10,082 nt of DNA from Enteropsectra breve (Eukaryota > Microsporidia): contig JALPMN010000470.1 in the NCBI GenBank assembly GCA_024243835.1, positions 1 through 10,082 on the forward strand, written 5' to 3'. The number at the start of each line of letters is the position of its first letter. The first letter of the stretch is position 1. Below the pieces are notes generated by a model. It was not told where the DNA came from, searched no databases, and saw nothing but the letters and a program-made list of their open reading frames with translations. A program made the position numbers and the translations under genes. Of this stretch, positions 1 to 10,082 are shown piece after piece.

Positions 1-66
1 GATGATGGCAAACTATTTAAGAAAAAAGAACCTAGAGGGGCATGGATGCCAAGGGTGAGAGATTAA
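1..66 (+). CDS. C-terminal tail of a partial ORF, possibly a Ty3-type integrase end
   Basis: Frame 1 is open from the left edge to a TAA at 64-66 and encodes 21 residues beginning DDGKLFKKKEPRG. The DD-x-K-x-FKK pattern resembles the end of the retrotransposon ORF elsewhere in this window (DDKIFKK near residues 1001-1007). It also resembles the general 'DGK-x-x-KR' tail that follows the GPY/F module of Ty3/gypsy integrases. I infer a second, different Pol end, or an older fragment, converging on the minus-strand gene that begins to be read at 2469. No polypurine tract or LTR end is visible in the 36 bases after the stop, so if it is an element it is probably degraded. With so few residues it could equally be the end of an unrelated gene. 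Confidence 0.35.
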   Translation, partial: DDGKLFKKKEPRGAWMPRVRD

Positions 67-102
67 TTAAATCTATTTACTTACTTTTTTTAGATGGCAC
101 CA

Positions 103-2469
103 TCATATCCCTACGGGGGTATGACAAAGAGCTTCCTTATATTTTGTTGATCTTTCAAAGCGAAGTGCGCTTAGCATTTTTTTCTTCTCTGTCACAGAGA
201 GCTTTTCGAAATTTTTCCTTTCATCACAATACAGCCAATCGTATATTACTTCCAACATCACTTTTTCGATTTGCTTTTGCAGATCTGCTTCAACAGAATC
301 AAAAATCTTTGGTGTATTAAAAAGGACTGTTAGTGTATTGTTGCTTGTAGAATCATAATATGCTTTTAAAAGTTCATAAGCAGGCGTGATTGAATACTTT
401 GAAAGCTTTTGATATTTTTCACCGTTTTTATCTATAACATATTCATTGAGTTGATAATTTAGTACTAAATTTAAGACCTCAAGGTCAAAGGTTTTCAACC
501 AATAGTTAAAATGGCTATCTTTTAAATCATGCTCGGTAACTGCCACCTCTAAAGTGTCATTGATCTTAACAAATGTTTTGAGAGCGTATGCAACATCATA
601 AGATTTACCATAAGGCCTCACCTCTGAAGTTGTTATAGTTCTAAGAGCTTTTACGGAACCATAAGATTCAATATAGGGGCCTTCTTCTAAAATTACTAAA
701 TTATTTACGCTGTAGATGAGCTTGCCATTTTGCTTAAGTATTTTATACAGTGGTATAGTATTGAGCAGGTACTTGTTCATTTCTCTTATACCAAAATAAT
801 ATTGTTCCATGAGATCTTTTGTTGCATCTACCTTTAAAGTAATTAGTGGCAGAGGATAATCCCTTCCATTTTTGCAATTCTTTTTGAAATTGTTATATTC
901 TTCCATGATTGCCATCTCATGCTCGTATAGCTTGTAGTGATCATTGTATCTGTGTAAAACTGCAGTTCCTGCCACAAGATTCTCAACCAAACGATAGCGC
1001 AGAGCCTCTTGAATGATTTCCTCACTTCCCACTAGATGCGTTACCGAATTTCTTAAATAGTTGTATTCACTAGTAGTTACGCCATATTCATGTTCTGAGT
1101 CATCTTCGAGTGCCAGATTACTGTAGCATTTACCATCGGTAGTCCCCTCTTCTTTAAAAGCCAGCCACATGTAGGCCAAATCTGCCTTAGAAAAGATCCC
1201 GCGCAATCCGAGAGTCTTAAACTTATACTGCTTCAAGTGCGCAAATGTGTAAACATCGGGACTGTTGAAACCAAAGACTTCAAAACCATTCAATCCATTA
1301 AGAACTTCTCTGTTGTTCGCTAAAAGGGAGTACAAGAGATGATCAAAATACGAAGAAGTATCCTTGTGAATTAGATTATAGGCAGAATCAGGGGTGTTGT
1401 ATAAATTCAGTTCCTTGATCTGTGGAAGGAGCCTTAAAAGAGAGCAGAAAATCACGTCAAGGCCAGTGAACCTACTTTTAGGAACCCAGCCGACAAGCTT
1501 GACTATATTCTTAAAAACAGGGGTTCCTTCATTAAAAAGATTTAAAAAAGAAATAATTTTTGAACTCACGCCCTTTCGCCGTGTGTGTATACATATTTCC
1601 TGTTCACTTCCAAGCCTGTATCTCATTTTATGAAGCGGCTCAACAAAATTGATTTCGAATGTTTTATCAAGCACATGATGCTTTACTTTGACAATGCGAA
1701 ACAGCGGCTCAATGAAATATAGACGTTTGTATAGGACACTGTTGTCTGTCTTGGTGAACTTCTCCAATAGCTCTTGCTTTTTGAGTAAACGGTATAAGTT
1801 TAATCCAAAAACAAGATCGCACTTAATTTTTACATGCGCGTGCTGCTTCTTGCTATCATGAACAAAAATATCAGCCGTTGCATGTGGCTCAAAACCAAGG
1901 TCTGCGTATAGTTCGAGCACTTCTATGCACTGAGCGAGGGTCATTTTCATATGCTCTGTGGTGAAGAGTTTGTGGCGCATCTCAAATATTATCATGATCA
2001 TCGTAAGGTCATATTTTTTGCTCAGTTTCATTGTTGGCATTGGCTCAGCAGATATTTTTTCAAAACACTCCAATTTATTTTTGTTTAGAGAGCTTTCAAA
2101 AAGTATAGAGAAATTCTTTGCATCAGTCGATAGACAATAATTCTGATTTTTTAAGGCATTGAGATAAATATACGCATATTCAAGACGCCAAAGAATTTGA
2201 TTTAGCTCATCTTGTGATTCTTTGCTGTATGAGGTTAACTCGTTGATATTTGTATCGGGCTCATAACTGTGTAGCAAGTCTTTTTGGTATCTAGCAGTTA
2301 TATCATCCTTCAAAACAGCAGATTCTAGCATATCTGGAAGCAAAAAGATAGCAGCCTCTTTTCCACTGCCTTCTATCTTAACTGATAATTCTTTGGCCTT
2401 TGGGTTGGTGAATGGCATCGGAGTAAATCTTCCAGCTAGTATTTGTGATAGTACTTCTTTAAAAATCAT
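103..2469 (-). CDS. Intact 788-residue protein of an unknown tandem gene family (family member A)
   Basis: I do not recognise this family. The frame is open up to a TTG at 2499, but the ATG at 2469-2467 is the better start: from there MIFKEVL lines up with MKWIKEIL, the start of the broken paralogue at 8988. It is also directly preceded by ACCG with two AAATTTT blocks just upstream. The product is 788 residues, ends at TGA 105-103, and has no obvious signal peptide or membrane span, so it is probably intracellular. Blocks shared with the paralogue (residues from the ATG) are: FTPM-x-F near 15; EMRHKLF near 163; HVKIKCDLVFGLNLYRLL near 212; EPLFRIVKVK near 254; GLDVIFC near 336; LLYSLLANN near 388; QYKFKTLGLRGIFSKAD near 414; HRYNDHY near 506. 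Around 336-430 there is leucine-rich-repeat-like spacing (LPQIKELNLYNT). No catalytic signature is visible. Confident that it is a gene, not of its function. Confidence 0.85.
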   Translation of the reverse strand: MIFKEVLSQILAGRFTPMPFTNPKAKELSVKIEGSGKEAAIFLLPDMLESAVLKDDITARYQKDLLHSYEPDTNINELTSYSKESQDELNQILWRLEYAYIYLNALKNQNYCLSTDAKNFSILFESSLNKNKLECFEKISAEPMPTMKLSKKYDLTMIMIIFEMRHKLFTTEHMKMTLAQCIEVLELYADLGFEPHATADIFVHDSKKQHAHVKIKCDLVFGLNLYRLLKKQELLEKFTKTDNSVLYKRLYFIEPLFRIVKVKHHVLDKTFEINFVEPLHKMRYRLGSEQEICIHTRRKGVSSKIISFLNLFNEGTPVFKNIVKLVGWVPKSRFTGLDVIFCSLLRLLPQIKELNLYNTPDSAYNLIHKDTSSYFDHLLYSLLANNREVLNGLNGFEVFGFNSPDVYTFAHLKQYKFKTLGLRGIFSKADLAYMWLAFKEEGTTDGKCYSNLALEDDSEHEYGVTTSEYNYLRNSVTHLVGSEEIIQEALRYRLVENLVAGTAVLHRYNDHYKLYEHEMAIMEEYNNFKKNCKNGRDYPLPLITLKVDATKDLMEQYYFGIREMNKYLLNTIPLYKILKQNGKLIYSVNNLVILEEGPYIESYGSVKALRTITTSEVRPYGKSYDVAYALKTFVKINDTLEVAVTEHDLKDSHFNYWLKTFDLEVLNLVLNYQLNEYVIDKNGEKYQKLSKYSITPAYELLKAYYDSTSNNTLTVLFNTPKIFDSVEADLQKQIEKVMLEVIYDWLYCDERKNFEKLSVTEKKKMLSALRFERSTKYKEALCHTPVGI

Positions 2470-2510
2470 CGGTCTAAAATTTTGTAAAAATTTAATCAAA
2501 ATCGTTAAAA
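2470..2510 (-). promoter_or_regulatory. Start-proximal AAATTT / ACCG signal of family member A
   Basis: Read on the minus strand, the 40 bases before the ATG contain AAATTTTTACAAAATTTTAG followed by ACCG touching the start codon. The broken paralogue (AAAAATTTT then CGGGCC-ATG) and the retrotransposon (AAAATTTTACCC-ATG) have the same arrangement. AAATTT-like and CCC/GGG-like motifs next to start codons have been described in microsporidian genes. Here they decide the ATG over the upstream in-frame TTG. Confidence 0.5.
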
Positions 2511-2774
2511 AGCATTATGTAATAATTAAATACCCATGATTGCCAACAATTATAAAATGTATCCATTTGAGGACCAAAAATAATATCGCTTAATTATTTA
2601 CAGCAGGCGCATATAAATGTGCATGCCATTTCAATAAAAACATCATAACTTCAATTTACATTTTAAAAATGCTATTTGCAACAGAATAAAATATGATTTG
2701 TAAAAAGCGGTGGAAATTTACACTTCATATTTGTTGAAAGCGTTGTCAACCCGCTTATGCCGTCATCACTTAAT

Positions 2775-2816
2775 GAGTTATAATTTAGTATACAGATTTT
2801 TATACACTTATAACTC
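2775..2816. repeat. Imperfect inverted repeat (potential hairpin)
   Basis: GAGTTATAA at 2775-2783 is the exact reverse complement of TTATAACTC at 2808-2816. An inner GTATA/TATAC pair extends the stem, leaving a small T-rich loop. It sits alone in the spacer. It could be a transcript-end or small RNA structure, a relic of a mobile element end, or chance in AT-rich DNA. No further partner sequence was seen in this window. Confidence 0.4.
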
Positions 2817-3028
2817 GCGTACTCCACGGTAGCTTCGTTCTTACGGTATATTAGAGCTAAGACCCTGTTAAAATAGAGGCTTAGTTTGAATTGACAGAAA
2901 TAATGCACCATAAGCAGGTTTTGAAGGATTTCTATCACTGGATGTTACGATTATTAATATGACAATAAAAAACTCATTATTATACCAATTTCATACGTAT
3001 TCATTCAAATGCATGCATAGCTTAACAC

Positions 3029-3217
3029 TCATAATTCGATGCTGGAAGACCTTTGCAATAGTTTTGTATGAAAAGTACAAATTTGAACATTTTCTTCACA
3101 GTCAAAACTAAAAAATACTTTTTCACTGTTTTCTAATTGAACGCAGATTGTTTGATGCTCAATATCCACTCCAAATATAACTACAACAATTGCTTTAGAC
3201 AGTATAATTTTCTTCAT
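3029..3217 (-). CDS. Doubtful 62-residue hypothetical protein
   Basis: An ATG-initiated frame encodes 62 residues starting MKKIILSKAIVVVIFGVDIE. It has a short basic start and a hydrophobic run (residues 8-16) that could serve as a signal or anchor segment, followed by a neutral tail with four cysteines. It lacks the AAATTT plus CCC/GGG arrangement seen before the three larger genes here and matches nothing I know. It lies in an otherwise empty spacer downstream of the broken family member. A chance ORF in AT-rich DNA is at least as likely as a gene. Confidence 0.2.
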   Translation of the reverse strand: MKKIILSKAIVVVIFGVDIEHQTICVQLENSEKVFFSFDCEENVQICTFHTKLLQRSSSIEL

Positions 3218-3391
3218 AAATGAATATGCTATCGTTTACCTACTAAAGTAATGCCTAGTGCTGTATGAGGGTCACTGGCGCACAAAATGGAAATCAAAAG
3301 ACCAGTAATTTAAAAGAGTTTTTATTATTGCATCTTTTCTAAAATATCATTTTGACCAATAGAGGCATCATTAAAAATGTGGTTTTCGCTC

Positions 3392-4897
3392 CTACTCTTG
3401 CCTCTCGGGGAACCAGGGGACAGCCAGCCGGGCATCTCCAAATAAAACTCGGCTTGCCAGCATATTTCTTGTCTTCTCTTCGTAATTTTGTGAATGACTG
3501 GAAGCAGTAAATTTTTCAGTTAAGGCTTTAAGAATTTGATTCTTAAAGAATATAACAGAATCATTGCTATAAGAACAAGGCAGGTCGAATTTAATGCATA
3601 GCTTGGTATCTTCTTTAGATTTGAAGAAATTTTCATAAATAGTGCATAGCAATGCCACCATTTCCCTTTTGATTAACTTTTCTTTGTTTTCGCTCCCCTT
3701 ATTCAGGTATGCAGTACCAGTACACGTAATAATTATACTTTTTCCCTCAGCATTTAAGTTTTTGAGACAGGCAAGAAAAGAATCAATGGTCTGCCGGCTC
3801 TCATGGGTTGTGAGCGTAATTTCAAGGGCTCTGCCATATGATACTGATGCTCCAATCGCTTTCATCACACTAACATTTCTTTTTTCGCTTAGACTGCTTA
3901 AAATTACAAGATTAGATGCACTGTAAGCAGGCAGGCTCTTTTTCTTTAGATCTTTGTAGACAGATATTAATCGCGGCAGCTTTTTATTTTTTCCCCTTTG
4001 CTCGAGCGGCATTTCTTTCAAATAGACTGGATTTAGATCGATTTTTAGTATTTTAAGACGAAGAGGAACCTCTCTTTTATTTTCTTTGTTATTTTTAAAT
4101 TCGTTGTATTTGTGCGAAATATTTTCTTCTTCCCTATAAAGACAATAGTTGTCGTTGTACCGATGTGCATAAACAGTTGCTTTTTTTAAATTTTCAATCA
4201 GATGATAATTCACTGCATCACTAACAACGTCCGCTGTGCATGCGATGCTCTTTACAGAGTTCCTCAGGTTATTGTATTCACCGAAAGATTCAACCTTGCC
4301 ATATTTCAATCCTTTACGAGCCAGGTCTCGATGCAGCTTTTCAATTGTAGCTTTATTTTCTTCCTTGAGAATACTGTAAAAATAAAACGGGTCTGCCTTG
4401 GAGACTATTCCCTGCATGCCAAACTTCTCAAATTTGTACTGCTTGATGAGCGAAATTGTTCTGGGGCAAAGAATATTAAAGCCAATTACATCAAACCCTT
4501 TTAGTTTGCTCAGTGTCTCTTTATTGTTCAGCAGAAGAGAATGCACCAGCTCGTCAAACTCTGTCTTGTGTTCTAAAGAGGGCAGGCTATAGCTAGTGTT
4601 GGACAGATTATAGAGAGACAAACGCATGATTTTGGGAAAAAGCTTCAAAACTGCGCAAAAAATAGCATCCAGGCCTTCTTTTGGCTGTTTAGATACACAG
4701 GCGACGAGTCAAGTCAGTACTTCGAATTCCATATTTTTTTCATTGAAACAGGCAAGAAAAGAGGCAGGATCATACACGTTCTTACCACGTCCGGCATAAA
4801 TATGTTCTTCGCCATTCCTTACCGGGATGCACTGCATATCCTTGACTGCATCAACAAACGTTATTGAATATGTTTTATGAAGCGGGTTATATTTCAT
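3392..4897 (-). pseudogene. Family member B, 3' half (downstream of the insertion)
   Basis: The frame resumes at the duplicated ATGAA (4897-4893), reading MKYNPLHKTYSITF, the counterpart of VKHHVLDKTFEINF in the intact copy. After 62 codons it meets TGA at 4711-4709, then continues in the same frame for another 438 codons to TAG at 3394-3392. Matching blocks are GLDAIFC, LVHSLLLNN, QYKFEKFGMQGIVSKAD, YNNLRNSV, HRYNDNY and NLVIL. No ATG stands at the head of the long open part; the TTG at 4648 is an arbitrary opening. The C terminus (ending PERQE) diverges from the intact copy. Confidence 0.8.
4893..4897. repeat. Target site duplication, left copy (TTCAT)
   Basis: It matches 8048-8052 on the other side of the element. 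Five bases is the usual duplication size for Ty3/gypsy integrases. On the coding strand it is ATGAA, the start of the Met-Lys pair that follows the conserved EPLFRIV block of the host gene; a sixth matching base overlaps the LTR end. Confidence 0.85.
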
Positions 4898-4946
4898 CTG
4901 AAGTATTTAAATTCATGGGTAAAATTTTAATGATAATAGTTAACTT
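4898..4946 (-). repeat. 3' LTR of the retrotransposon (49 bp)
   Basis: An identical copy of the 5' LTR, preceded on the minus strand by the polypurine tract. Because its internal ATG (4916-4914) also faces outward, reading from it gives eight codons and a stop in the flanking gene frame region, so it does not fuse to the downstream gene fragment. It could still act as a promoter for that fragment. Confidence 0.9.
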
Positions 4947-4960
4947 CCCCCCTCCCCGCC
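4947..4960 (-). promoter_or_regulatory. Polypurine tract of the retrotransposon
   Basis: The minus strand reads GGCGGGGAGGGGGG immediately before the 3' LTR. This is the RNase H-resistant primer expected for plus-strand DNA synthesis. The run is strikingly G-rich for an AT-rich region, and it begins six bases beyond the Gag-Pol stop codon. Confidence 0.85.
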
Positions 4961-4966
4961 AAACGG

Positions 4967-7900
4967 TTAGTGTATTCCTTTCAAATCATAATGATTTTTC
5001 TTGAAAATTTTATCATCTTCCTTTACTAAATAAGAATCGTTATCGCAGACATCTATGATTACTCCGTTACGATAAAATCTCCCTTTCTCATTTTTGGTCT
5101 TGTCTTTTAAGTTCTCGTGGCTGGTTATTCTTACTTTTTGTCCTTTTAAAAATTTTTCACGCTTCATCATTTTAAATCTCTTTTGGTACAACCCTGCCCT
5201 GCTATTTTCCATCTGCGCTTCTCCTCTATCATCGTAAAAGGCTTCTTTAGGTGCACATCTTATTGCTGCATGGTATGAATTGTTGTAAATTTCCACAATC
5301 CTCTCGACTCGTTCTCGTATTGTGCCTTCTTTCATTCTTTCCAATCCGTCTCTAATGCTACGTATAACTCTTTCAACACGACCATTGCTTCTATGTGCTT
5401 CGATTCCTGCTTTATGATGTTCAATGCCATATTCCCAAACTAGCTTCTTAACTCTCTCATTGCAAAATTCTCTTCCGTTATCTGTGATAATTTCTACTGG
5501 CCTGTATCCATTTTCGAAACACTTTTTTAATGCTTCTGTAATCGATTCTGCCGATTTGTCCTTTAGGATCTCTACCTTTAACATTCTTGAAAAATAATCA
5601 ATAATTACCATTAGTACAGTTTTAGGATCATTTAGGAACATCAAATCAATTCCTATTTTCTCCATTGGTCTAGATGTTGTAATAAATTCGCTGCCCCCAG
5701 TCGTCTTCCTGTTTACTCTCTGGCAGGTATTACATTCTTTTATCAACATCTCAATATCTTTCCTTATACCCGGCCAATACATTTCGCTTTTCACTGAATA
5801 ATATGTCGCCTCTAGCCCTTTGTGACCAACTTTCTTATGTGCTTCCATTAGTATTTCCTTTCTCTTGTCTTTCTCTGGCATCCACCGCCTTTCTCCATTA
5901 TCAAATATCCAGAATTCTTTCTCTCCGTCAACTATTCTATGCTTGGTCATTTTGCCTTCTTTAATTTTGACCCCTCTTTCGTTTTCATAAAGTCTACTCA
6001 AGGCATCTGGTGCCGCTAACTCTTCTCCTTTATTATAATGAACCTCAAAGTCGAACTCTTGAATAATTTCAATCCACCTATTCACTCTGCTATTATTAAA
6101 TTCTGCTTTCCTTCTTATCTCCTCTAGGGCTTTATGATCTGTTATTAACTTAAATCTTCTACCTCGTAATTCGTACTCAAATTTCTTAATACCCCAAAAT
6201 ACCGCATACATTTCTCTTTCTGTGATACCATATCTACTTTCAGCAGGAGTCAGCTTTTTAGAAGCCCACTGGACCGGCCTCCATTCGTCTTTATCATCCT
6301 TTTGTAACAATACCGCACCAAGTCCAGTAAGTGACGCATCAGTTCTAAGCATAAATTCCTTGTTATAGTTCGCCAATAGTAACTTTTTTAATTCTGATAC
6401 TTCTTGCTTTATAGTTTCAAACTGTTCTTGCATACCTTTTGTCCATTCCCATGCTTTGTGGCGACCTTTAAGTCCGTCAGTTAACTTATTTGTCTTCTCT
6501 GCATACTTGGCAATAAAATTTCTAAACCATCCAGTTAACCCCAAAAATCTCCGTAATTCTGAAACATTTTTCGGTATCGGGTATTCCAACGCCTCGTTTT
6601 TCTTTATCTCACTGGCTTCCTGTTCTGTTCCATTTAAGGTAACCCCAAGTAGCTTGATCTCTTTCTTTTTAAATTGTATTTTCTCTGGATTTATCTTCAT
6701 ATTATTAACCTCTAGTCTCCTGATTACATCCTGTAATAATATATCATGATCTTTTTCTTTTTCTGCATGTATCACGATATCATCCATATATATTTCCACT
6801 CCGTTGCCTCTGATACCTTCCATTATTTTATTCATTATTCTCTGTAGCATCTGCGGAGCATTCTTAAACCCCATTGTCATACTATTCCATTCAAAGACTT
6901 TCCCATTAATCTCAAATGCCGTCTTATATTTATCTTTCTCTACAATCTCCACATGGTAAAATCCCTCTTTCAGATCTAAAACTGTAAAAAATTTTGATCC
7001 CTGTGTTGCCCTGATCACGTCTCTTATATTCGCCAACTCAAACTCATCTTTTTCAACGATATCATTGAGCATCATAAGATTACTCACGAGCCTGATTTCT
7101 CCCCCTGGCGACTTTTCTATTGCGCGTATTGGATTTCTCCATGACGATTCAGACCTCCTAATAACTTTTCTTGTCTCTAAATCTTCTATGTAGTCCAATG
7201 TTCTCTTTAGCATTGCTTGCGGTATATTTTGCCCCTTCTTATAGACCTTCGTACCATTGATAGTGTTTATTGAGCATTTTTCGATTTCACAATATTTTAT
7301 TTCTTCTTTTTCTTTCCTAACTAATTTTTGCAATTTGCCTAACAACTCTTGGTCTCTTTTAATTCTTTTGCTTTTGTCTGATGCTTCCGCTAGCATATCC
7401 AATTCATTGTTTCTACTGCGCTTCCCTAATTTACTTAATTCACGTACATCTTGATTATGTTGAAAATCATTTCTTTCTAAATAAAACTCTTTAAAGCGAT
7501 AATTAGAATTGAATTTACTCATAGTTTCCCTGCAAAATCTTGCAGTGTGACCAATTCTCCCACATGCATAACATTTAATAGCTTTTCTCTGGACACTGTT
7601 ATTTGATCTAACTGCTTCTAATTCCTTTTCCAGTTTTATTACTCTCTCCTCCAGCATTTCTCTTTCTTTACTTAATATCCTTTCTTCTAGGATTTTTATC
7701 TGCTCTTCTTTCTCATTTAACTCTTTCTGCATCTGATTCCTTTCCTTTATTTCTTCTCTTTCTGCCACCTTTGATTTAATCGTGGCCATTATCTTCTCTT
7801 CTGTGATGGTGCCACAACATTCACTTACTAAAAAATCTCTCATCTCCTGGCTTGCCTTTCTCCACACTGCCAGTGCCCATTCACCATCTAGTCCTTCTAG

Positions 7901-8017
7901 GCTTATTTCCATCTTAATTCTTTCATACTCATCCTTTATTCTTTTGGGGTGTTCCCCACAGTAACCTCTAGTTACTCCGTTTTCGCTTCGGGTGCCATCT
8001 GAAGTATTTAAATTCAT
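4967..8017 (-). CDS. Gag-Pol polyprotein of the Ty3/gypsy-type element (RT, RNase H, integrase; no protease seen)
   Basis: The ORF encodes 1016 residues in one frame and makes the enzymes that copy the element RNA into DNA and insert it. Domains in order: short Gag-like region with a charged coiled coil (about 82-142); zinc knuckle C149-x2-C152-x4-H157-x4-C162; basic linker; reverse transcriptase (about 255-480) with VLDLKEG (D348) and YMDD (410-413); RNase H (about 553-680) with D560, E600, D627 and D671; integrase with H727-H732-C762-C765 zinc site, catalytic D791, D846 and E882 (35 residues between the last two), and a GPY/F-like module near 979-997. No D-[S/T]-G aspartic protease motif lies between knuckle and RT (163-255), and no capsid domain is recognisable. 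The ATG is inside the 5' LTR; it is preferred because ACCC touches it and AAAATTTT lies just upstream. All catalytic residues checked are present. Confidence 0.93.
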   Translation of the reverse strand: MNLNTSDGTRSENGVTRGYCGEHPKRIKDEYERIKMEISLEGLDGEWALAVWRKASQEMRDFLVSECCGTITEEKIMATIKSKVAEREEIKERNQMQKELNEKEEQIKILEERILSKEREMLEERVIKLEKELEAVRSNNSVQRKAIKCYACGRIGHTARFCRETMSKFNSNYRFKEFYLERNDFQHNQDVRELSKLGKRSRNNELDMLAEASDKSKRIKRDQELLGKLQKLVRKEKEEIKYCEIEKCSINTINGTKVYKKGQNIPQAMLKRTLDYIEDLETRKVIRRSESSWRNPIRAIEKSPGGEIRLVSNLMMLNDIVEKDEFELANIRDVIRATQGSKFFTVLDLKEGFYHVEIVEKDKYKTAFEINGKVFEWNSMTMGFKNAPQMLQRIMNKIMEGIRGNGVEIYMDDIVIHAEKEKDHDILLQDVIRRLEVNNMKINPEKIQFKKKEIKLLGVTLNGTEQEASEIKKNEALEYPIPKNVSELRRFLGLTGWFRNFIAKYAEKTNKLTDGLKGRHKAWEWTKGMQEQFETIKQEVSELKKLLLANYNKEFMLRTDASLTGLGAVLLQKDDKDEWRPVQWASKKLTPAESRYGITEREMYAVFWGIKKFEYELRGRRFKLITDHKALEEIRRKAEFNNSRVNRWIEIIQEFDFEVHYNKGEELAAPDALSRLYENERGVKIKEGKMTKHRIVDGEKEFWIFDNGERRWMPEKDKRKEILMEAHKKVGHKGLEATYYSVKSEMYWPGIRKDIEMLIKECNTCQRVNRKTTGGSEFITTSRPMEKIGIDLMFLNDPKTVLMVIIDYFSRMLKVEILKDKSAESITEALKKCFENGYRPVEIITDNGREFCNERVKKLVWEYGIEHHKAGIEAHRSNGRVERVIRSIRDGLERMKEGTIRERVERIVEIYNNSYHAAIRCAPKEAFYDDRGEAQMENSRAGLYQKRFKMMKREKFLKGQKVRITSHENLKDKTKNEKGRFYRNGVIIDVCDNDSYLVKEDDKIFKKNHYDLKGIH
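7980..7997 (-). promoter_or_regulatory. Primer binding site of the retrotransposon
   Basis: One base after the 5' LTR the minus strand reads TGGCACCCGAAGCG. TGG pairs with the CCA end of a tRNA, which is the standard position for priming minus-strand DNA. The first eleven bases differ at one position from the well-known tRNA-Lys type site TGGCGCCCGAA, so a lysine tRNA is a candidate primer; the organism's tRNA set would be needed to confirm. The site lies inside the coding sequence (codons 7-13), which is unusual. Confidence 0.65.
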
Positions 8018-8047
8018 GGGTAAAATTTTAATGATAATAGTTAACTT
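7999..8047 (-). repeat. 5' LTR of the retrotransposon (49 bp)
   Basis: It is identical over all 49 positions to 4898-4946. On the minus strand it begins AAGTTAACTATT and ends AATACTTCAG, so it lacks the usual TG...CA ends. It contains AAAATTTTACCC followed by the ATG that opens Gag-Pol, leaving only 30 bases of LTR upstream of translation. An internal palindrome AGTTAACT lies next to the outer end, a plausible integrase recognition feature. Confidence 0.9.
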
Positions 8048-8052
8048 TTCAT
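8048..8052. repeat. Target site duplication, right copy (TTCAT)
   Basis: The partner of 4893-4897. Keeping one copy rejoins the host gene in frame (Arg-Met-Lys-Tyr-Asn-Pro), which proves the boundary independently of the LTR comparison. Confidence 0.85.
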
Positions 8053-8988
8053 TCTAACTATGCGAAATAGAGGCTCTAAGAAACTTAGGCGATGCGAAAG
8101 ACTGTTATTTGGGATAAGCTCATAGCCCAACTCATTTTTAATATTACTATTGGGGAAGCATGGGAGCATCTCGGCGCACTTTGCAGCAAGAACAGAAGGA
8201 GGAGCAGAAGGTTTGTATTCAAAAGACAAAAAAGGCTCTTCTTTTACTGACCCTTGAAAGAGGACTGCCGCTTCAAACGCACTCAACAGGCCTGCCTTTT
8301 CCAGTAAGTTGTGCAAGTTTAGGCCAAATACAATTTCACACTTAATTTTGTAGTGCGCAGTCTTTCCCTCTTCATTTTTCACGAAAATTTCAGCCACAGA
8401 ATTCTTTTTAAAGTCAAACTCTTCATAATATTGCAAAACTTTCCTGAGGATTCTTGGCGTCAGCTTTACATCAGCGATATTAAACAACTGGTGGCGCATC
8501 TGAAATACAAGTTGCATTATATCGTGGTCATAGTCCACAGATATCTCTTTGAGCGGCATTTTGTTCTCACGAATTCTTTTTAAGCCATCAGATAGAAACC
8601 TGTAAGACTCAATTTTGTTTCTAACTTCATATGTTGAATCCTTAATGCAGTATGGGATTACCCATAGACAACTGGTATAGTCCATAGCGAATTGACACCA
8701 CTTTTGTATGTCGGCATATGGATCATTTGACGCTGGTGAGGGAAGTGACAGGCTGTCTTTGATATATTAAGCAGTATGAGAATCCGTGTTTGTTAATACC
8801 TTGGCGCGCATTGCATTGAGTTTGTCTGCTAGCGTCTTCGATTCTAAGAGTTCTGTTATCAAGAATTTAGCTTTTGTTCCATCGCAGAGCACAGGTACTG
8901 ACAGCAGCTCATCGTATGGACCGGTGAATTTGATTGGAGTAAAGCCGCTCCGCAAGAATGGTGGAAGTATCTCCTTGATCCACTTCAT
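8048..8988 (-). pseudogene. Family member B, 5' half (upstream of the insertion)
   Basis: The frame opens at ATG 8988, reads 73 codons (FTPIKF block near residue 16) and meets TAA at 8769-8767. The same frame then continues without a shift through residues such as YADIQKWCQFAM, into MDYTSCL at 8685. It goes on through QMRHQLF, HYKIKCEIVFGLNLHNLL and EPLFRIVRMK, where the retrotransposon interrupts the AAA codon area. After the junction the frame runs four bases more into a TAA formed by the LTR (8043-8041). The ATG at 8685 is therefore an internal methionine, not the natural start of a 214-residue gene. Confidence 0.8.
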
Positions 8989-9030
8989 GGCCCGAAAAAA
9001 TGTGAAAATTTTTAATAAAATGATAACGCT
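8989..9030 (-). promoter_or_regulatory. Start-proximal AAAATTTT / GGGCC signal of family member B
   Basis: On the minus strand the bases before ATG 8988 include TTAAAAATTTTCACA and then TCGGGCC touching the start codon. This matches the arrangement before the intact copy and in the retrotransposon LTR, and supports 8988 as the original start of the broken gene. Confidence 0.5.
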
Positions 9031-9097
9031 GATGGATTTGTTCGATGAATCAGATTTTTTTAAAGCAAAAATTATGTTGTTGTACTACATGAACATC

Positions 9098-9403
9098 CTA
9101 TAAAGAGCAGCACATCGAGCTTTTTTTGTTTTTATACAAATAAATAGACATATTTGATGCTATACCCACATTTCTTTTTGTATAGATATTTTGATATGAC
9201 AAAAGAAACATCTGCCGCTGCATTTTAGTAAAACACGCCAGAACTTTGTTTTCAATTGCATGCAAACCCCCAAGCTTGATTTTTAAGATGTGGAGTCTTC
9301 TGTTAAAATGCACATTATTTCCGATAATTTTGTTTTTAATCTTGGGTAAATAGCTCATTTCTTTGTGAAATAGTCGCTTTAATTTATATTTTTGAACATA
9401 CAT
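9098..9403 (-). CDS. Doubtful basic hypothetical protein (101 residues)
   Basis: The frame is open from a TTG at 9469, but the first ATG is at 9403, giving 101 residues beginning MYVQKYKLKRLF. It is rich in Lys, Arg, Ile, Asn and Tyr, as chance frames in AT-rich DNA often are. It ends 110 bases upstream of the start of family member B on the same strand. I see no recognisable domain, signal peptide or start signal. It may be a real small basic protein, a relic, or noise. Confidence 0.2.
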   Translation of the reverse strand: MYVQKYKLKRLFHKEMSYLPKIKNKIIGNNVHFNRRLHILKIKLGGLHAIENKVLACFTKMQRQMFLLSYQNIYTKRNVGIASNMSIYLYKNKKSSMCCSL

Positions 9404-9608
9404 CGGCACAAAATGAATAGAACAATATTTTTCAAAAATAGATTTTTGCTTATAGAGTAGAGATAGCAAATTCGTTCTGGTATGAGTATTTTAAGAAATG
9501 GTTTCTAGGATTTAAAACTGGTAAAGTTTAAAACTAGTCGTTTATCTAAGTTTGGCTTGATTTAGTGGCATACCAAAACTGTCAGGCTAAGTTATATTTG
9601 GGCGGCGA

Positions 9609-9767
9609 TTAACAGTAACAATTATGATGTTGCTTCACCCGTTCTCTCAATCCATTGATGCGAAATGCTATAATCTTAGAAGTCCTTGAATTATTGCCGA
9701 TGCTTGTTTTGAAAGTTGAATTCATATTGATAAGCGTAAAGTCACCCATATTACGAACATGTTGGCC
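9609..9767 (-). pseudogene. Frame-shifted continuation of the unknown gene
   Basis: In a second frame on the same strand, open from 9767 to TAA 9611-9609, the translation reads QHVRNMGDFTLINMN and on to a C terminus rich in His and Cys (KQHHNCYC). It looks as coding as the preceding exon. A start at ATG 9749 would give a 46-residue protein. The simplest reading is that one base has been lost (or two gained) somewhere between 9767 and 9725, so this is the true tail of the gene and the gene is broken. A sequencing error or a separate overlapping small gene are alternatives. Confidence 0.4.
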
Positions 9768-9866
9768 TTAATACGCAGTGGCCAGCCTTCTGGGAAAGTT
9801 TCGTGTTTTATCTGAATCGGTGTTAAAATGCAATAGCTGAAGGCTTCGTGGTTAAAGCTGACTTCC
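9722..9866 (-). CDS. Unknown gene, exon downstream of the intron
   Basis: After the intron the frame runs 47 residues to TGA 9724-9722, starting EVSFNHEAFSYCILTPI and including ETFPEGWPLRIKA. There is no ATG upstream in this exon's own frame, and a TAA lies inside the intron, so it makes sense only as a continuation of the right-edge exon. The early part looks coding; the last 15 residues may be out of frame, because a better-looking frame overlaps them (9609-9767). LTPIQI faintly recalls the FTPIKF block of the neighbouring family, but the similarity is too short to assign it there. Confidence 0.5.
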
Positions 9867-9918
9867 CTGAAATTATAATACAAAAAAATTGTTTAAGATT
9901 TTACTTATTAAAATTTAC
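9867..9918 (-). other. Probable 52-nt spliceosomal intron
   Basis: On the minus strand the segment begins GTAAAT, contains CTTAAAC (branch-like) followed by a run of seven T, and ends TTTCAG. It carries in-frame stops, while both sides look coding. Removing it joins CA to G, making a Gln codon, and continues exactly into the open frame GAA GTC AGC on the other side (phase 2). The length and all signals fit short fungal or microsporidian introns; transcript data are lacking. Confidence 0.55.
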
Positions 9919-10082
9919 TGGGCTGGAGTTGTGCGCGTCAAATAAGAGAGTACCATGTAGAAGTGCTTGCAATAGGCATCTGCTAAGCTGCAGGCGTTGG
10001 AATCTCCACACTCACTTTTGTTAAATTCTGCACATTGCCGTTTGAGCTCCTCAATTCTTTCTGAGCCGGTCTTAGCCTGCAG
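9919..10082 (-). CDS. Unknown gene, exon entering from the right edge
   Basis: The minus strand is open from the window edge and encodes 54 complete residues, including SERIEELKRQCAEF and CSLADAYCKHFYMVLSYL, with four cysteines (near 17, 25, 31 and 38 of the visible part). It uses mixed, more GC-rich codons and is far less AT-biased than its surroundings, as real coding sequence would be. Read straight on, it would stop at TAA 9917-9915. Instead, the last codon CA|G is split by a GT at 9918, and a typical intron follows. I do not recognise the family. The 5' end lies outside the window. Confidence 0.6.

Follow-up and report, generated by a model that had tools for sequence, protein, structure and literature searches.

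A Ty3-type retrotransposon of the microsporidian Enteropsectra breve with 49-bp long terminal repeats that contain the Gag start codon

The Ty1 element of yeast, which is of the copia type, has a long terminal repeat (LTR) of about 334 bp; its Gag frame opens within the 5' LTR, and its primer binding site (PBS) lies in the coding frame. By contrast, terminal-repeat retrotransposons in miniature (TRIMs) are non-coding. Statements on the literature made hereafter refer to excerpts of the papers cited. The shortest LTR in the literature examined is 52 bp, that of CcaRetroS9, a 233-bp plant TRIM of Cajanus cajan (PMC4717578). Among microsporidia, Ty3/gypsy groups with a single polyprotein open reading frame (ORF) are known (Parisot et al. 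2014, PMC4202319), a protease is described for nearly all elements of Nosema bombycis (PMC2474625), and in Anncaliia algerae the start codon of a Pol gene is preceded by GGG, the alternative start signal of microsporidia, which was read as domestication (PMC4072689). Here, we analyzed a 10,082-nucleotide contig of the microsporidian Enteropsectra breve (JALPMN010000470.1, positions 1 to 10,082; hereafter the window), which carries a Ty3-type retrotransposon with LTRs of 49 bp. We consider it likely that this element is structurally complete and probably recently inserted, and that the LTRs of its clade have shrunk to about one microsporidian gene-start module.

The window element resembles the TRIM in having LTRs of about 50 bp, but it carries an open Gag-Pol of 1016 residues with reverse transcriptase (RT), RNase H and integrase and is thus not non-coding. 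As in Ty1, the start codon is in the 5' LTR and the PBS is in frame; Ty1 differs in its copia type and longer LTR. The order of RT, RNase H and integrase, a 5-bp target-site duplication (TSD), a tRNA primer and a polypurine tract are shared with Ty3, whereas the 49-bp LTRs, the start codon inside the LTR, the lack of a recognizable protease and a Gag part that reaches the zinc knuckle after only ~160 residues are not. The element probably falls into one of the groups of Parisot et al., with which it shares the Ty3 type, the single ORF and a microsporidian host, a likeness of description and not of sequence. A microsporidian start signal before the start codon is also present in the Pol gene of A. 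algerae, there as GGG and read as domestication, and in contrast to nearly all N. bombycis elements (PMC2474625) the clade of the window element has no protease. In the literature excerpts examined, we found neither coding elements with ~50-bp LTRs nor a start cassette inside an LTR, an earlier notice in N. bombycis (Xu et al. 2006) being possible, and nothing evidently on the subject of protease-less LTR elements. The features of the element are as follows.

4897-8046, minus strand: whole element, 3150 bp as delimited by the LTR/TSD scan, coding fraction 0.969
7998-8046, minus strand: 5' LTR, 49 bp, AGTT..CAGA
4897-4945, minus strand: 3' LTR, 49 bp, without differences from the 5' LTR
4892-4896, no strand: left TSD, TTTCA on the plus strand (TGAAA in element orientation)
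8047-8051, no strand: right TSD, TTTCA on the plus strand
8018-8032, minus strand: ATTAAAATTTTACCC in the 5' LTR, with an ATTAAA poly(A)-type signal, an AAATTT-like box and a CCC motif, overlapping, directly before the ATG
4967-8017, minus strand: Gag-Pol ORF, 1016 residues, ATG at base 30 of the 5' LTR
7984-7997, minus strand: PBS, matching the 3' end of tRNA-Lys(UUU) by complementarity over 14 nt, adjoining the LTR, inside the ORF
7532-7573, minus strand: CCHC zinc knuckle of Gag, residues 149-162, Cys and His invariant in the alignment
6635-7102, minus strand: RT, residues 306-461 (PF00078, E 6.9e-31)
6053-6367, minus strand: RNase H, residues 551-655 (PF17917, E 2.4e-34)
5414-5872, minus strand: integrase, zinc-binding residues 716-770 (PF17921) and core residues 783-868 (PF00665)
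4946-4960, minus strand: G-rich polypurine tract GGCGGGGAGGGGGGA, as read from the sequence

The window contains an exact direct repeat of 52 bp (4895-4946 and 7996-8047, 100% identical), which was reduced to 49 bp when equal 5-bp flanks were required, leaving two registers one base apart, 4898-8047 (AAGTTA..CTTCAG, TSD ATGAA) and 4897-8046 (AGTTAA..TTCAGA, TSD TGAAA). We prefer the latter, since the TGG of the primer site then adjoins the LTR without a gap; furthermore, the register AGTT..CAGA alone gives an equal first base in the window LTR and its two solo copies described below. A gapless TGG was also found in L037, L038 and L045 (one register each) and in one of the two registers of L040. 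Here L and C numbers denote loci and contigs of the same assembly, in which we searched 3.96 Mb in 155 contigs, C88 being the window. This genome matched the microsporidian SSU rRNA model along all of its 1311 positions (882 bits), which is supportive rather than conclusive, since 9 of 14 prokaryote control genomes also gave hits in that search. As a control for the flanks, equal 5-mers bordered 0.275% of 20,000 segments of 49 bp drawn at random from fetched DNA. A first-pass annotation of the window had described perfectly identical 49-bp repeats, a 5-bp duplication, a PBS and a G-rich polypurine tract, all of which were recovered here, with the duplication present in both registers; its ends, 4898 and 8047, gave the right length and are probably one base off, and the Gag-Pol ORF, which it had placed between the LTRs, in fact starts inside the 5' LTR. 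The identity of the LTRs suggests that the insertion is young, 49 bp giving little dating power. Two other candidates were rejected, namely a chance repeat, ruled out by the exact 52-bp repeat and the LTR/TSD scan, and a non-LTR or DIRS-like element, ruled out by the integrase and the TSD.

PBS fits were scored against 60 of the 61 tRNA matches in the genome, with length counted from CCA and with 110 TGG sites as a control. The window PBS fitted tRNA-Lys(UUU) over 14 nt, compared with a maximum of 9 nt for the control sites. tRNA-Lys also fits L037 (20 nt), L038 (17 nt) and L039 (13 nt), and the primer fits were tRNA-Arg(UCG) for L049 (13 nt), tRNA-Ser(UGA) for L047 (10 nt) and tRNA-Ala for L040 (9 nt). 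Note that the 9-nt fits of L040, L046 and L051 are no better than those of the best control sites. G-runs like the window tract also precede the 3' LTRs of L037, L038 and L040. RNA folds at the LTR/PBS and tract/LTR borders were not better than those of shuffled sequences (z of -0.92 and +0.17, respectively). As a separate observation, tRNA-Ser(AGA) gave primer fits of 9-11 nt in L041, L044, L045, L046 and L051, a second group with longer LTRs.

The genome search returned only two places matching the window LTR other than its own pair, and a pattern search that tolerated 3 mismatches at most found the same four LTR places and none with the reversed control. Both other places, L003 and L004, are single 49-bp copies (AGTT..CAGA) with exact 5-bp TSDs of their own (2/2; TTAAG and TAAGT, respectively). 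Each also fits the register one base off, in which case the first base differs among the copies. The first-pass annotation had named copies with extra shared terminal sequence as the observation that would speak against it; both copies end at 49 bp and are bounded by TSDs, supporting that 49 bp is the entire LTR of the window element. Furthermore, L049, a sister element that lies at one end of contig C84 and is 46% identical to the window protein over residues 143-379, has an LTR of 48 bp (TGTT..CACA), for which one longer copy was seen, the contig ending there. This LTR has 14 further matches (L067-L080), which do not include the internal part of the query. Exact 5-bp TSDs stand at the 48-bp ends in 9 of the 14 match rows, which become 8 of 13 sites as L068 and L069 have identical flanks, and were not found at these ends in L067, L070, L073, L074 and L080. 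Copy counts are approximate owing to duplicated-looking contig ends or sites in the assembly (L041/L042 on C33 and C132, C63/C64, and L068/L069). Most of the 14 matches retain an ACCCATG-like start, so that solo copies of this kind could give rise to new gene starts in the vicinity of host genes.

We next consider what the 49 bp contain. The Gag-Pol ATG is preceded by AAAATTTTACCC, and AAAATTTTACCCATG in the LTR agrees with the AAATTT, CCC and ATG motif of microsporidian gene starts (PMC2803860). In Encephalitozoon cuniculi, as described in the excerpts of the same paper, 5' untranslated regions (UTRs) are shorter than 7 nt, most genes have a CCC-like motif ahead of the start codon, ribosomal protein genes have a AAAAATTTT signal 1 nt from CCC, and AUUAAA makes up 25% of the poly(A) signals observed (PMC2803860). 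The Gag ATG is within the LTR in all of the 11 LTRs examined, and CCC lies within 8 nt upstream of it in 10, L045 having TCC. AATAAA or ATTAAA is likewise present in 11/11. The frames opened by the LTR ATG run for 258 residues in L047, 484 in L040 and 634 in L051. For comparison, of 16 host ORFs (at least 200 residues, fetched DNA), 7 have CCC or GGG no more than 15 nt from their first ATG, versus 14% of 4150 ATGs. A short leader also recurs among the 37 homologues (P0002-P0038): 20 could be judged, of which 14 have 3-6 residues before a second Met-Ala or Met-Gly and 6 start there directly. The remaining 17 are incomplete or unfit for the leader rule; among them, P0033 and P0035 have the same leader, and the start of P0037 resembles that of the window protein. 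Taking L049 as the guide, we infer that in these proteins the LTR/PBS border falls at the second Met. From these motifs, 49 bp could plausibly hold a promoter, a poly(A) signal, a short R region and a start codon. The first-pass annotation was correct on the small size of the LTR, whereas its concern that little room is left for template switching loses force because a compact gene-start signal of the microsporidian type is present in the LTR.

In the mechanism that we propose, transcription would start at ACCC or close to it, only a few bases ahead of the ATG, U3 would thus comprise about bases 1-24 of the LTR, and the RNA would end in the 3' LTR, 10-30 nt past ATTAAA (bases 15-20). R would then be roughly 5-25 nt, with U5 as the rest of the LTR. 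In retroviruses such as mouse mammary tumor virus and Rous sarcoma virus, an R of about 15-21 nt is functional. Minus-strand DNA, presumably primed by tRNA-Lys, would copy U5 and R and jump to R at the 3' end, and integrase would insert the product at a cut staggered by 5 bp. The LTR contains all or part of each of the first seven Gag codons, and the PBS contains the few that follow.

Several points weigh against this reading. The window family has only one full-length copy in the assembly. AATAAA-like words are common in AT-rich LTRs, the rate per LTR being 8-59% in same-letter shuffles, and may be promoter boxes instead. L039, a twelfth element, left out of the 11 as its LTR is not delimited, has just CC before the ATG, and the host start motif stands at just 7 of the 16 first ATGs. 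In addition, 5'UTRs of Edhazardia aedis average 180 bp (PMC2474625), indicating that short 5'UTRs are not universal.

The protein places the element in Ty3/gypsy. RT, RNase H and then integrase, with a Ty3-like RT, follow one another in the ORF, LTRs and a TSD are present, the LTRs are bordered by the tRNA primer site and the polypurine tract, and the best sequence match among solved structures (PDB) is Ty3 Gag-Pol (E 2.2e-104, profile positions 228-912). By its sequence, the window element is thus a Ty3-type LTR retrotransposon, as the first-pass annotation had proposed. Named homologues among the closest matches are from Nosema granulosis and Vairimorpha necatrix. No aspartic protease was recognizable between Gag and RT, the window ORF having neither a D[ST]G motif nor a Pfam protease family. 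In a 24-protein alignment, no retroviral or gag-type aspartic protease was among the 25 of 49 families listed, where one-member families could be hidden; Peptidase_A17 touches 2 members, with E 0.047 at best. The motif D[ST]G[AST] was found in 1 of the 37 homologues (P0012). The structure model (mean predicted local distance difference test score 76.4, predicted template-modelling score 0.47; residues 1-22 and 165-216 unreliable) predicts no barrel ahead of RT, where it has helices and a long coiled coil instead, and a fold search with the whole model gave RT chains only among the best 50 rows. The usual capsid domain was also sought, and no Gag family was among the Pfam rows for the window ORF. 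Since RT, RNase H and integrase place the element in Ty3/gypsy, the missing protease is a departure inside that group. Within the genome, protease matches are present in L039, L041, L044, L045, L046 and L047, and were not found in L037, L038, L049 and the first piece of L040. A scan of viral contigs for relatives gave two pattern matches, neither of which was confirmed.

A tree of 38 rows (25 chosen from 78 homologues and 13 from this genome) placed the window element in an 18-row clade (support 100/100) with L037, L038, L039, L040 and L049. The LTRs measured in this clade are 48-70 bp long, and the exact position of the window element inside it is weakly supported (80/47). A second clade of 5 rows (100/99) has LTRs of 80-119 bp in the four measured. 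LTR lengths with a TSD found by script were 60 bp (L040), 68 bp (L038), 70 bp (L037) and 119 bp (L045), and L044 has an LTR of 178 bp if extended past one mismatch, with a TSD (GAATT) found by eye. No TSD was found for L046 (110 bp, contig edge), L047 (80 bp) and L051 (84 bp), so that TSDs were found in 6 of 9 two-LTR elements including the window element. The L041 LTR is 87 bp as measured on the 3' copy alone. Measured LTRs in elements other than the window element and L049 thus range over 60-178 bp. An LTR pair was not found for L039, L043, L048, L049 and L054. The L038 LTR has one further exact copy, plus the L037 pair at 83%, and the L040 LTR has 9 further matches. Besides these, L050 (C150) is an RT-bearing element between direct repeats that are imperfect and roughly 190 bp long.

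We weighed three other explanations against these data. Since LTRs reach 178 bp in other elements of the genome, the 49-bp repeats might be leftovers of longer LTRs shortened by deletion or recombination in this copy. This is extremely improbable: two independent solo copies are both 49 bp with their own TSDs, which is the outcome that speaks against such remnants, the sister family has a 48-bp LTR with TSDs at 9 of its 14 further matches, and the PBS and G-rich tract adjoin the LTR ends. Truncated longer LTRs were accordingly ruled out by the solo copies and the sister family. Alternatively, with just 29 bp of LTR upstream of the ATG, the RNA may begin at an upstream host promoter, with the LTR not driving transcription and ACCC-ATG serving translation only; the literature excerpts report transcription overrun in E. 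cuniculi and long 5'UTRs in E. aedis (PMC2474625). However, a start outside the LTR would leave no R in common with the 3' LTR, as needed for first-strand transfer, the AAATTT-CCC form matches a signal called promoter-like in microsporidia (PMC2803860), and CCC precedes the ATG in 10 of the 11 LTRs; we therefore judge a host-promoter origin of the RNA improbable.

The third explanation concerns the protease. A non-autonomous passenger would rely on a protease-bearing relative for Gag-Pol processing, its short LTRs being still functional, and such an arrangement would suit the lack of a D[ST]G motif before RT and of a protease family in the window ORF, the lack of a predicted beta-barrel before RT, and the presence in the genome of elements with protease matches. 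It nevertheless seems rather unlikely to us, as the protease-free layout is common to the clade (motif in 1/37 homologues, some of them from N. granulosis and V. necatrix) and L037 and L038 are likewise without a protease match. Because the layout is common to the clade, the absence of the protease is not a recent deletion.

Extending the preferred reading, that of a complete element whose LTR is a gene-start module, we tentatively suggest that throughout a clade of microsporidian Ty3-type elements the LTR may be compressed to an overlapping 48-70 bp host gene-start cassette, with the same bases serving promoter box, poly(A) signal, R and Gag start codon, and that these elements may move with an unprocessed protease-free Gag-Pol, each being a minimal coding LTR retrotransposon. 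The window element lowers the bound for a working LTR in a coding element to about 48-49 bp, and the small size would follow from the LTR needing to carry only what the host requires for transcript initiation and termination. How short R can be in strand transfer becomes testable in such elements, and their solo copies leave short host-like gene starts with an ATG. Note that the default LTR floor of LTRharvest is 100 bp in the description available, so that runs at the default would miss the LTRs of 48-87 bp described here; microsporidian genomes may harbor many uncounted short-LTR elements.

Finally, we characterized the host gene at the insertion site, whose two parts are as follows.

8047-8988, minus strand: host paralogue, 5' part, one in-frame stop
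3395-4894, minus strand: host paralogue, 3' part, one in-frame stop

The insertion target is a paralogue of the gene at 103-2499, residues 1-273 of which align to the right flank and 273-730 to the left flank. When the element and one TSD copy are removed, the host codons are in phase, as the first-pass annotation had stated; however, the rejoined gene is not open, since each translated flank has one further in-frame stop, indicating that this paralogue is a pseudogene even when the insertion is disregarded. The segments 103-2499, 3395-4894 and 8047-8988 thus belong to a paralogous host gene family without a Pfam match, of which one copy is intact and the other is interrupted and carries the two further stops.

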